Positions 27,472 through 55,001 of a DNA stretch of 64,000 nt are shown here, piece by piece. The position numbers were made by a program, and so were the translations under genes. The notes beneath the pieces were generated by a model. That model was given only the letters and a program-made list of their open reading frames with translations. It made no database searches and had not been told where the DNA came from. Position 1 is the first letter of the stretch. The number at the start of each line of letters is the position of its first letter. Origin of the DNA: Mumia sp. ZJ1417 (GTDB lineage: Bacteria; Actinomycetota; Actinomycetes; Propionibacteriales; Nocardioidaceae); NCBI RefSeq assembly GCF_014127285.1, contig NZ_CP059901.1:2232001-2296000 (forward strand). Direction: 5' to 3'.

Positions 27472-27933
27472 TCACCAGAACTTCTTGCGCCACCACCGCG
27501 GGAAGTGCCCGATGGCACCCTTCCTGGCGTACCGGTCGCTCCTGGCGAACCCCTGCCACTTCTCGCGCTTGAGCTTGTTGTTCAGACCGAGCTTGCGGGA
27601 GCAGCCGGGCCATGCGCCCCAGCCCTGCCCCTTGAGGACCTTCTCGGCGACCGCGATCTGCTCGCGCCGCTTGGCCTTGTGGGCGTACGAGGCGTACTTC
27701 TTGCCGCCGTACGCACGCCAGGTGCCCGCGCTGAACTGGAGGCCACCGTGGTAGCCGTTGCCGGTGTTGATGCGCCAGCGCTTGCCTGACTCGCACTTGG
27801 CGAGGCGCTCCCAGGTCTTGTCCTTGGCTGCGTTGGCGGGCGTGCTGGTGAAGACCAGCATCCCCAGAACCATGCCGGCGAGCGCCAGCGTGAGAGCGAC
27901 GCCACGACGGGCGACGCGGAGGGCGTTGAACAT
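27472..27933 (-). CDS. Resuscitation-promoting factor-like transglycosylase
   Basis: Secreted cell-wall-cleaving protein of the Rpf family. The 153-residue product has a signal peptide (residues 1-36, basic start, hydrophobic core, cut after PANAA) and an Rpf domain at about 38-112: WERLAKCESGKRW with the catalytic Glu, NTGNGYHGGLQFSAGTW, and EKVLKGQGWGAWPGCS. A basic C-terminal extension rich in Arg, Lys and Trp (HFPRWWRKKFW) follows. ATG start behind AAGGGA. It is preceded directly by a c-di-AMP riboswitch, the known control of actinobacterial rpf genes. Confidence 0.93.
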   Translation of the reverse strand: MFNALRVARRGVALTLALAGMVLGMLVFTSTPANAAKDKTWERLAKCESGKRWRINTGNGYHGGLQFSAGTWRAYGGKKYASYAHKAKRREQIAVAEKVLKGQGWGAWPGCSRKLGLNNKLKREKWQGFARSDRYARKGAIGHFPRWWRKKFW

Positions 27934-27944
27934 GTTGTCCCTTC

Positions 27945-28100
27945 ACAACGCCTGTGGGGTTAGCTGTCGGGTTCGGGCCGAAGGTGCCCGGCCTGCCGCG
28001 TTGTTCGTGCGGCAAGGCTTCACCCCAAGGAGCCAAGGCTCCAGAGATGGGTTCCCCACTCCCGCCCGTTCAGATCAAGGTTCGCCGGCCCCCGTGACCG
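27945..28100 (-). promoter_or_regulatory. Cyclic di-AMP riboswitch (ydaO-yuaA class) of the rpf gene
   Basis: Reading the minus strand, the leader holds the conserved blocks of the RF00379 aptamer in order: GGGGAACCCA (28057-28048), TTGGGGTGAAGCC (28028-28016), GGCCCGAACCCGACAGC and GCTAACCCCACAGGCG (ending near 27949). The aptamer ends about a dozen bases before the ATG at 27933, so ligand binding can act on the ribosome site or on nascent transcription. The class is known to switch genes off when c-di-AMP is high. Limits are approximate, as I could not fold it. Confidence 0.88.
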
Positions 28101-28235: not shown

Positions 28236-28288
28236 CGGCGGTGAGTCCGGTCCCACCGAGGCCCGCACAGTGGGACCTGAGTCACCGC
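28236..28288. repeat. REP-like palindrome, copy A
   Basis: Left arm 28238-28256 and right arm 28270-28288 pair over 19 bp with two mismatches around a 13-nt loop. It lies between the divergent rpf and nuclease genes, so it is not simply a terminator. Same family as the copies at 29320-29374 and 51773-51827; shared core GGTGAG-YCYGGTCC. Confidence 0.75.
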
Positions 28289-28383
28289 GCCCGCATTCTC
28301 CACACACGCCTTCGGCTCCGCGGCATCCACAGGTGCGCGCGCAGGCGATGTACGGAGCCCGCGAGGACGCGTGAGATGACGGG

Positions 28384-29328
28384 ATGCCCGCACCGACACC
28401 GCTTCCAGTTCAGCTGACCAACCGCCCGTTCTCGCGCGACGAGCTGGTCGCGCTCGGACTCTCGCCGAAGCTGCTCCTCGGCAAGCGTTTTCGCCGCCTT
28501 CATCCCGAGACCTGGGTGCACACGGATCACGCGATGACCGACAGCGACCAGATTGCGGCCGCGGCGCTCGCGGTGCCTTCGTACGCTCAGCCCACCGACG
28601 GCACGCGCCTCCGGATGCTCGGGTACGACGACCTCCCTCTGGAGCCGATCTGCTTCGTGGTGCCGGACGACCATCACGTCGCACTCGACGGCATCATGGT
28701 GCACCGGACGAAGGAGATGCCGCCTCTCGACGCAAGCGGGGTGACACCCGCCGCGGCATTCCTCGGATGCTGTGCCGAGGAGCCCCTCATCGACCTCGTC
28801 GCCGCCGGCGACTGGCTCCTCCGCCACGGTCACGCCACACATGAGGAGCTCGCCGAGCTCGCGATCCGCGACTCCTGGCGCCCCGGCGCAGACCGCGCAC
28901 TCGAGGTCCTACCGATGCTGAACCCGCGCTCGCGCTCGCCTCGCGAGTCGAAGGTCCGTGCGATGCTCGTCATGGCCGGACTTCCCACGCCTGAGGTCAA
29001 CGTGGACCTCTTCGTGGAGGGGACGTTCCTCGGCTGCGCCGACCTGCTCTACCATCGATGGCTGCTCGTTCTCGAGTACGAAGGGCGCCAGCACGCCGAG
29101 GACGTCCACCAGTTCAATGTTGACATCGGACGGTACGAGGGGTTTCGCGACCACGGCGTCACGTACGTCCAGATCACGAGCGCACGTTTCGCCCGTCCAC
29201 GTGCCTTCGTCATCCTCGTGCACCGCAAGCTCGTCTCGCTCGGCTATGACGGGCCTGCACCCTCGTTCGGACCACGATGGCGCGCCCTCTTCGCCCCCGT
29301 ACCCGGCCCTCACGCACGACGGCGGTGA
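28384..29328 (+). CDS. DUF559/Vsr-like endonuclease-fold protein with AbiEi-type N-terminus
   Basis: 314-residue protein. Residues 12-50 resemble the winged-helix start of AbiEi-type proteins (FSRDELVALGLSPKLL, then RRLHPETWVHT). The C-terminal half has a PD-(D/E)XK/Vsr-like arrangement: E188 in RESKVRAML, D220 in GCADLLYH, and E231-Y-E233-G-x2-H237, as in DUF559 nucleases. The activity is inferred. No partner toxin gene lies beside it. The stop codon lies within the right-hand repeat. No clear Shine-Dalgarno; TGAGAT lies six bases before the ATG, a weak version of the leaderless pattern seen elsewhere here. Confidence 0.75.
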   Translation: MPAPTPLPVQLTNRPFSRDELVALGLSPKLLLGKRFRRLHPETWVHTDHAMTDSDQIAAAALAVPSYAQPTDGTRLRMLGYDDLPLEPICFVVPDDHHVALDGIMVHRTKEMPPLDASGVTPAAAFLGCCAEEPLIDLVAAGDWLLRHGHATHEELAELAIRDSWRPGADRALEVLPMLNPRSRSPRESKVRAMLVMAGLPTPEVNVDLFVEGTFLGCADLLYHRWLLVLEYEGRQHAEDVHQFNVDIGRYEGFRDHGVTYVQITSARFARPRAFVILVHRKLVSLGYDGPAPSFGPRWRALFAPVPGPHARRR

Positions 29329-29374
29329 GCCTGGTCCCACCCGATGCTTCTGGGTGGGACCGGACTCACCGCCG
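29320..29374. repeat. REP-like palindrome, copy B
   Basis: Arms 29320-29342 and 29352-29374 pair over 23 bp with two mismatches around a 9-nt loop. It contains the stop codon of the nuclease gene (29326-29328) and lies between that gene and the convergent terC, so it may also act as a terminator. Its right arm is identical, in inverse orientation, to the left arm of copy A. Confidence 0.8.
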
Positions 29375-34686: not shown

Positions 34687-34746
34687 GGTCTCGACAGGCT
34701 CGACCGGCGGAGCGCCGGCCGTCCGCTGGTCGAGCCTGTCGAGACC
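34687..34746. repeat. Perfect 19-bp palindrome between convergent TetR and thiolase genes
   Basis: GGTCTCGACAGGCTCGACC (34687-34705) is exactly complementary to 34728-34746, with a GC-rich 22-nt centre that can form its own small stem. It ends one base before the thiolase stop. The sequence is typical of dispersed palindromes in actinomycete genomes and may double as a bidirectional terminator. Confidence 0.75.
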
Positions 34747-38430: not shown

Positions 38431-38485
38431 GGTCGTACGGCGGGCGGCCCGCACGAGTCTGGTCCGCCGCGCACGTCAGTCCGCC

Positions 38486-38517
38486 GGTGGTCACCCGCAG
38501 CGGGCCCAGTGACCACC
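38486..38517. terminator. Hairpin between convergent htdX and tesB
   Basis: GGTGGTCAC (38486-38494) pairs perfectly with GTGACCACC (38509-38517) around a 14-nt loop. Position between two 3' ends suggests a bidirectional terminator; no T-run. Confidence 0.5.
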
Positions 38518-38552
38518 CAGCGACCAACGCAACACCTGCACCGACCGGGGCG

Positions 38553-51772: not shown

Positions 51773-51827
51773 CGGCGGTGAGCCTGGTCCGACCGGTCGG
51801 CACCGGGTCGGACCAGGCTCACCGCCG
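51773..51827. repeat. REP-like palindrome, copy C (perfect 22-bp arms)
   Basis: Arms 51773-51794 (CGGCGGTGAGCCTGGTCCGA then CC) and 51806-51827 are exact complements around an 11-nt loop. Its arms differ from the ends of the 28236-29374 unit at three positions only, so it is the same repeat family, here without a nuclease gene. It lies 41 bp past the acnA stop and may also terminate acnA. Confidence 0.85.
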
Positions 51828-54857: not shown

Positions 54858-54901
54858 AAACTTCTCGCTCCGGTCCGAGCCCTCCCAGCGCGCGCCACCA
54901 T

Positions 54902-54983
54902 TTTCCGTGGGGGCCAACGCAGACGTCTGGCCCCACCTCGATGTTCCGGTGGGGGCGCAACTCTGCGTTGGCCCCCACGGAAA
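54902..54983. repeat. Large nested inverted repeat with perfect 22-bp arms
   Basis: Arms 54902-54923 and 54962-54983 (TTTCCGTGGGGGCCAACGCA plus two bases) are exact complements; inside, GCCCCACC (54930-54937) pairs with GGTGGGGGC (54948-54956) to form a second stem. It begins 18 bp past the GNAT stop and may end that transcript before acnA. Its sequence is unrelated to the 28/29/51 kb palindrome family. Confidence 0.75.
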
Positions 54984-55001
54984 GTGCGGGCCGCGGGGAG
55001 G

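Follow-up and report, generated by a model that had tools for sequence, protein, structure and literature searches.

What does a nuclease gene do between two palindromes of a kind that recurs elsewhere in the same chromosome? This question is raised by a locus of the actinobacterium Mumia sp. ZJ1417, whose genome was assembled as a single contig of 4.19 Mb (NZ_CP059901.1). We analysed a stretch of 64,000 nucleotides of this contig (positions 2,232,001 to 2,296,000, hereafter the window, numbered from its first letter), five Mumia relatives (G001-G005; the window's own genome is G000) and homologous loci of other bacteria. Mobile repetitive extragenic palindromes (REPs) have been explained by one class of enzymes, the REP-associated tyrosine transposases (RAYTs), and a CGTC super-family of REPs is said to have no dedicated transposase (PMC3733652; this and all further sources are cited for the parts available). 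We propose that the window contains a REP-like selfish repeat system with a dedicated nuclease, an AbiEi-Vsr fusion that recognises 22-bp inverted arms, and we give this reading a probability of roughly 0.65. It is based on the anatomy of the unit, gene-specific flanks, the co-occurrence of copies and units, the uniformity of the copies, presence and absence of units, invariant catalytic residues and the lack of a detectable Y1 enzyme; binding, cleavage, movement and spread via repair are what we infer.

The unit and its nuclease

The unit and a solitary palindrome of the same family (family A) have the following parts:

28236..28288, no strand: left palindrome, outer arm 28236-28257; the start codon lies 96 bases beyond its end
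28384..29328, + strand: nuclease gene, 314 aa, with a predicted AbiEi-like N-terminal part and a predicted Vsr/EDxHD-like domain
29320..29374, no strand: right palindrome, outer arm 29353-29374; it holds the stop codon of the gene
51773..51827, no strand: solitary palindrome of family A, with a palindrome as counterpart in G005 (L127)

An earlier note on this DNA had described the two outer arms as exact reverse complements, and this holds over 22 bp, with identity stopping there at both ends. The palindromes on either side of the gene measure 51-55 bp each; the arms are about 22 bp long and spaced by 9-13 bp within a palindrome. One gene lies between them, as had been claimed, but not quite enclosed, as its stop codon TGA (29326-29328) falls within the right palindrome. 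The lone palindrome at 51773-51827 is indeed perfect and pairs at 22 of 22 positions, but the three copies described are not the whole family, of which at least 8 members pass a strict filter in G000. With as many as 3 mismatches allowed, a 21-bp arm is matched five times in the window (0.02 expected from shuffles), and eight hairpins of the 64 kb score at least 13, three of them being these palindromes. Among 43 window genes tested, the nuclease gene alone has flanks that match each other at a score of at least 45. A looser 17-bp pattern is unremarkable in the window (11 matches, 6.37 expected, as many in 6 of 100 shuffles) and with up to 2 mismatches contrasts only weakly across the genome (39 matches, 19 for the reversed control). 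Because this pattern separated so poorly from its control, copies were counted with a covariance model followed by a strict filter.

The window protein of 314 residues has E188, D220, E231, E233 and H237, in agreement with the residues listed before, and E188, D220 and E231 are invariant in 22 of 22 homologues. Its AbiEi-like part spans residues ~3-180, and the Vsr/EDxHD-like nuclease domain ~185-288. The designation DUF559/Vsr-like needs a qualification: at E<=1, searches against Pfam, NCBIfam and PADLOC give no match for the window protein on its own, and the label is justified because homologues match PF04480 (10/22 at E<=0.1) and PF18741 (11/22; the window protein is among the 22) and because the predicted fold is Vsr-like and AbiEi-like. 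By the modelled Vsr-like fold and the conserved E and D residues the protein would belong with the EDxHD/DUF559 nucleases, and an AbiEi-like fold is likewise found in its model. At E<=0.001 Foldseek by itself found no match, and nothing convincing came from searching the PDB by sequence; the best profile match, IcmE (E 1.6e-6), is in our reading a repeat artefact. NGO0050 of Neisseria gonorrhoeae is a profile match at E 0.03 and also a fold neighbour of the window protein.

A part of the predicted nuclease fold is common to restriction enzymes, the earlier note had considered a protecting role, and there are weak matches to the anti-phage model Hhe in 4/22 homologues (best E 5e-4) and to ProA in 3/22. 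The nuclease might thus attack foreign DNA, with the palindromes marking or sensing self. We consider such a defence function very improbable, as PADLOC, run on the window protein alone among the homologues, did not match it, a chromosome would hardly be marked by so few copies (at least 8-26 per genome), and the neighbours at the window locus do not, in our reading, resemble defence genes. The unit sits between an Rpf-like gene and a gene which we take to be a convergent TerC-like gene downstream; these names, and meaB, pyc, upp, crp, ogt, rnh-pgm and ilvC, were read off translations. A c-di-AMP (cyclic di-adenosine monophosphate) riboswitch (RF00379, 61.5 bits, 27935-28097, - strand) precedes the Rpf-like gene (27472-27933). 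A strong hairpin with a 25-bp stem (GGTCTCGACAGGCTCGACC...) at 34687-34746 is unrelated to the window palindrome family.

Gene-specific palindromes and their solitary copies

The arrangement is general: in Mumia and several related actinobacteria, nuclease genes usually lie between palindromes peculiar to each. Several paralogues in the window's own genome are enclosed in this way, by a different sequence for each. For each gene, the left flank was compared with the right one and the best match was scored (cut-off at least 45), with flanks of different genes as control. Flanks match at 20 of the 22 Mumia loci, at 7/11 loci of other genera of the family and at 1/4, 2/5 and 1/2 loci of three other families of the order (4/11 together); of 1608 mismatched pairings, 4 reached the cut-off. 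Within-genus pairs, which may have orthologous flanks, are excluded from this control; it does include L170 and L177, two loci dropped from the count for other genera (9/13 with them) because contig ends made the compared stretches overlap. The non-genus set uses 24 of 30 loci, with L160, L163, L165, L171, L175 and L180 omitted as genus loci already seen. The Mumia loci without matching flanks are L041, whose left side is assembly junk, and L058. Outside this count of 22 stand the genus loci L032 and L036-L040: flanks match at L040, L037 and L039 were judged by eye, L036 is not among the scored flanks, and there is no match at L032 and L038, where the window's own genome has decayed remnants of related nuclease genes (L032 1501-1950, L038 1520-1632).

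Loci from named genomes (Mumia, Aeromicrobium, Nocardioides, Pseudactinotalea, Microbacterium, Geodermatophilus and others) gave a similar picture, with matching flanks at 32/35, or 28/30 without the repeats of genus loci (L195-L199), and 24 of 1225 mismatched pairings at or above 45. The failing loci are L195, L206 and L226. This set of 36, from which L220 was dropped (cut by a contig end), was found with a six-member alignment of the window's subfamily and is biased to that subfamily. A gene on a Tsukamurella plasmid also has matching inverted flanks. Not every flank pair is a compact hairpin; some loci have long-spaced inverted repeats or arrays, and at L164 and L169, in another family (f3), the flanking repeats are nearly identical blocks of ~95 bp with widely spaced inverted ends. 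Similarity of the proteins correlates with similarity of the repeats (rho 0.35; 0/2000 permutations as high) when the comparison is restricted to the repeat and pairs with shared flanks are removed (33/36 loci kept, 15/528 pairs dropped). By inspection, many repeats of the window's subfamily start with GCGGTG, and the next stretch varies between genes. Some other palindrome families begin with CGTCC. A link to the CGTC-tagged REPs of alphaproteobacteria was considered and is unsupported, as 0/6 proteobacterial plasmid DUF559 loci have matching flanks, in a slight test that covered 8 of 20 plasmid DUF559 matches, six proteobacterial and one of these alphaproteobacterial. CGTC-1/dRS3 repeats are reported from Neisseria (PMC3733652).

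Solitary copies accompany the matching unit. For family A, 150 candidates per genome were scored with the covariance model, and all counts are lower bounds: at least 22, 37, 23, 30, 4 and 58 model matches on both strands in G000-G005. After the strict filter there remain at least 8 in G000, at least 14 in G001, at least 8 in G002, at least 15 in G003 and at least 26 in G005, and at least 1 in G004, the sole genome of the six without an orthologue of the window nuclease gene. L096, L097, L105 and L120 fail the filter; L105 is the second, weak model match of G004. In the alignment of the model 94.4% of the cells are paired, a value from hand-chosen copies and thus not an independent test. Family B has 13 sites in G002 and 14 in G004, both with units flanked by B, and without unit 0 matches in G000, 0 in G001, 1 in G003 and 3 in G005. 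Family C, whose unit is in G001, has 25 sites there, 1 match in G004 and 0 in the other four genomes; family D, whose unit is in G000, has 10 sites there, 3 matches in G003 and 0 in the other four. These site counts include the two flanking palindromes, and the patterns were derived from units seen previously; reversed patterns gave 0 (B), 1 (C) and 0 (D) matches in all genomes together. Thus, over four families and six genomes, at least 8-26 copies or sites occur where a unit flanked by the family is present, and elsewhere at most 3 matches. The gene is hence flanked by repeats of a genome-dispersed family, as in REP/RAYT systems, and with matching flanks at 20/22 and 32/35 loci and solitary copies that track the unit in four families, the palindromes are not randomly placed relative to nuclease genes.

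The position of the solitary copies is compatible with a more ordinary role. All 47 classified solitary loci lie between tandem (28) or convergent (19) genes, none between divergent ones; the intergenic regions of the window are 24 tandem, 9 convergent and 9 divergent. For this classification 56 loci were run with a crude gene caller, 5 stayed unclassified, 4 lay inside a called frame, and orthologous sites were counted repeatedly. AbiEi-type proteins autoregulate via inverted repeats (PMC7319586), and the left palindrome is upstream of the gene. The palindromes could therefore be autoregulation sites of an AbiEi-like regulator together with downstream terminators, the repeats being kept by ordinary recombination and selection rather than spread by the nuclease. 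This would leave unexplained the matching palindrome downstream of the gene, the solitary copies at unrelated genes and their near absence where the unit is absent, and we regard it as improbable. Plain terminators can be rejected, as they fail to explain gene-specific pairs or co-occurrence with the nuclease; hairpins at gene ends may terminate transcription as a side effect. In G001 and G005 some copies stand in tandem at distances of 60-82 bp. In G001 and G002, by inspection, the gene is flanked by direct arrays in which half-sites recur every ~31-33 bp.

Presence, absence and turnover among relatives

At the place of the window unit, four of the five relatives carry a unit. In G004 ~63 bases join the neighbours, and the gene and both palindromes are absent; an empty site, which the earlier note had asked to look for, hence exists, and the locus is not occupied in every relative. 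In G003 (L041 1197-1377) runs of C and G, apparently assembly junk, stand where the left palindrome is expected; similar junk adjoins the palindrome of L113. At each of six further unit loci of G000 the gene is present in some of the five relatives and absent in others, a gene being counted as absent if tblastn found nothing at E<=1e-4 within ~3 kb. At the ogt-like locus the sole absence (G001) depends on flanks that match weakly, and three of the genes found there share just 45-48% identity with a different paralogue. G001 carries the gene of the meaB-like locus in the opposite orientation. At the pyc-like locus five species carry units with proteins 65-79% identical and palindromes that differ in their inner parts, least between G000 and G005; two of the five types are B and C, counted genome-wide above. 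These five units may be orthologues or separate insertions. In G002 the interval between these gene ends contains a single lone palindrome.

Within a genome the copies are uniform. In G001, whose protein is 65% identical to that of the window, one inner arm pair is T-A in 14/14 family A copies counted; in the other five genomes the same pair is G-C in 54 of 58, G.T in 3 and C-G in 1. At the one solitary site found common to G001 and another species (L089, L125), each copy is of its own genome's type.

Further palindromes of the window belong to other families:

54899..54986, no strand: solitary palindrome of the family of paralogue L037, a further example of the system outside the window unit
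38462..38530, no strand: palindrome of a third family; similar repeats lie close to the homologues L047 and L051 and to the gene remnant L038

The latter occupies a convergent intergenic site at which G003 has a family A palindrome (L112); this may be a hot spot, or one family may have replaced the other. Each of the six solitary sites of G000 corresponds to a palindrome-bearing site in one relative or more. Among six G003 sites without palindrome in G000 or G002, L115 corresponds to a clean empty site in G000, and at the remaining five the absence lies within poorly aligned sequence.

The window unit carries an exact 22-bp inverted repeat at its outer ends, as is expected of an insertion sequence or a miniature inverted-repeat transposable element. 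It could be, though we consider this unlikely, a conventional small transposon, with the palindromes as terminal repeats, the nuclease as a cut-and-paste or nicking transposase and the solitary copies as miniature derivatives. Visual inspection of the empty site in G004 and of the six G003 sites compared with G000 and G002, where flanks have diverged, revealed no target-site duplication.

Several observations weigh against the selfish repeat system that we prefer. Flanks do not match at any of the six proteobacterial DUF559 loci nor at one Streptomyces locus, and in other families of the order they match only at a minority. The homologue L039 has short repeats and no palindrome; judged by eye, direct repeats (CGGGTCAC.GTCTGC-like), three in number and short, stand to one side and a single inverted copy to the other (1380-2460, own genome). 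Repeat similarity follows protein similarity only modestly, and copy numbers of at least 8-26 per genome are low for REPs. Turnover appears slow, because every solitary site of G000 has its palindrome counterpart in a relative; neither a target-site duplication nor a recent jump was seen, and the differences between genomes may stem from gain or from loss of units or copies. G004, without the gene, keeps one family A copy, and because it sits at a site that G004 shares with four species, family A may be older than the empty site suggests.

A probable repeat-plus-enzyme system with a different enzyme

In REP/RAYT systems ('REPtrons', TnpA-REP) the enzyme gene is flanked by its own palindromes, and solitary ones lie mostly between tandem or convergent genes, with some tandem clusters (PMC3733652). 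The layout described here is the same, an enzyme gene between its own palindromes plus solitary copies, and the orientation bias of the latter resembles that of REPs (PMC3733652). The enzyme, however, is not a Y1 HUH transposase but a protein with a predicted Vsr/AbiEi fold. Y1_Tnp (PF01797) had no match at E<=0.01 in six of six Mumia genomes, and the same search was positive in 6 of 14 control genomes; a hidden RAYT behind the palindromes can thus be rejected for these six genomes. REPs are GTAG-tagged hairpins of 20-40 bp, whereas the sites here look like 22-bp double-stranded half-sites, in at least 8-26 copies; by inspection, copies of the window family show GCGGTGAG ends and carry no GTAG tag. 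Because the Y1 enzyme was not found and the tag is absent, we regard the system as working like REP/RAYT without being a member. It differs in its enzyme and likely in its mode of recognition, and would be of one kind with REP/RAYT if any repeat-plus-enzyme system is counted together. The earlier note had placed the nuclease in a RAYT-like position. The pairing that it claimed is strongly supported by flanks, solitary copies and the empty site; the mobilising or protecting role we keep as a conjecture.

TnpA-REP acts on a single-stranded hairpin (PMC8266576). The binding site of AbiEi consists of two inverted repeats of 23 bp separated by 3 bp; Rv2827c recognises 23-bp repeats with 13 bp between the members of a pair (PMC7319586). 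The geometry found here, with 22-bp arms and 9-13 bp spacing, is nearer to these double-stranded sites (PMC7319586) than to the hairpin (PMC8266576). Compared with AbiEi-family antitoxins such as AbiEi and Rv2827c, a nuclease domain is added, and palindromes stand on both sides of the gene and elsewhere. Compared with EDxHD or Vsr-like homing endonucleases (I-Bth0305I; DUF559), the nuclease is fused to an AbiEi-like part and repeat-flanked, lies outside an intron, intein or gene, and comes with several gene-specific site families per genome; the empty site and the lone palindrome are, by analogy, compatible with EDxHD-type homing. Caulobacter VsrA is likewise DUF559/Vsr-like; its gene is unlinked to a methyltransferase gene, and in the available part of the report it is read as a mismatch-repair enzyme and palindromes go unmentioned (PMC12907096). 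The earlier note knew of no described system with this pairing, and none came to light: our literature search, which covered neither preprints nor most subscription papers, found no account of palindromes paired with nucleases of the DUF559, Vsr-like or AbiEi kind.

We suggest the following mechanism. A unit consists of palindrome, nuclease gene and palindrome, and single palindromes of its type are found elsewhere in the genome, in most cases downstream of genes. Each half-site of ~22 bp may be bound as double-stranded DNA by one AbiEi-like part, which we propose because the arm geometry resembles the AbiEi and Rv2827c sites. Two inverted half-sites would unite two proteins, whose Vsr-like domains might nick or cut at the palindrome. 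Repair from another copy would level the copies within a genome and install new ones, at times the whole unit; if the two flanking palindromes recombined with each other, a lone palindrome would remain. In a wider view, to which we incline with little more than even confidence, this would be a second, independent REP-type colonisation, in which an actinobacterial AbiEi-Vsr nuclease recognises its own double-stranded palindromes and copies or homes into these sites. The two would co-evolve, and whenever the nuclease changed its specificity, palindrome turnover across the genome would follow.

If the nuclease maintains its own palindrome family, repeat-plus-enzyme systems would have arisen more than once. 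The abundant actinobacterial group of AbiEi/DUF559-type genes would, if this is true, gain a role. The pairs of nuclease and site, with proteins 65-79% identical at one locus and palindromes that differ, form a natural series for learning how such nucleases choose their sites.
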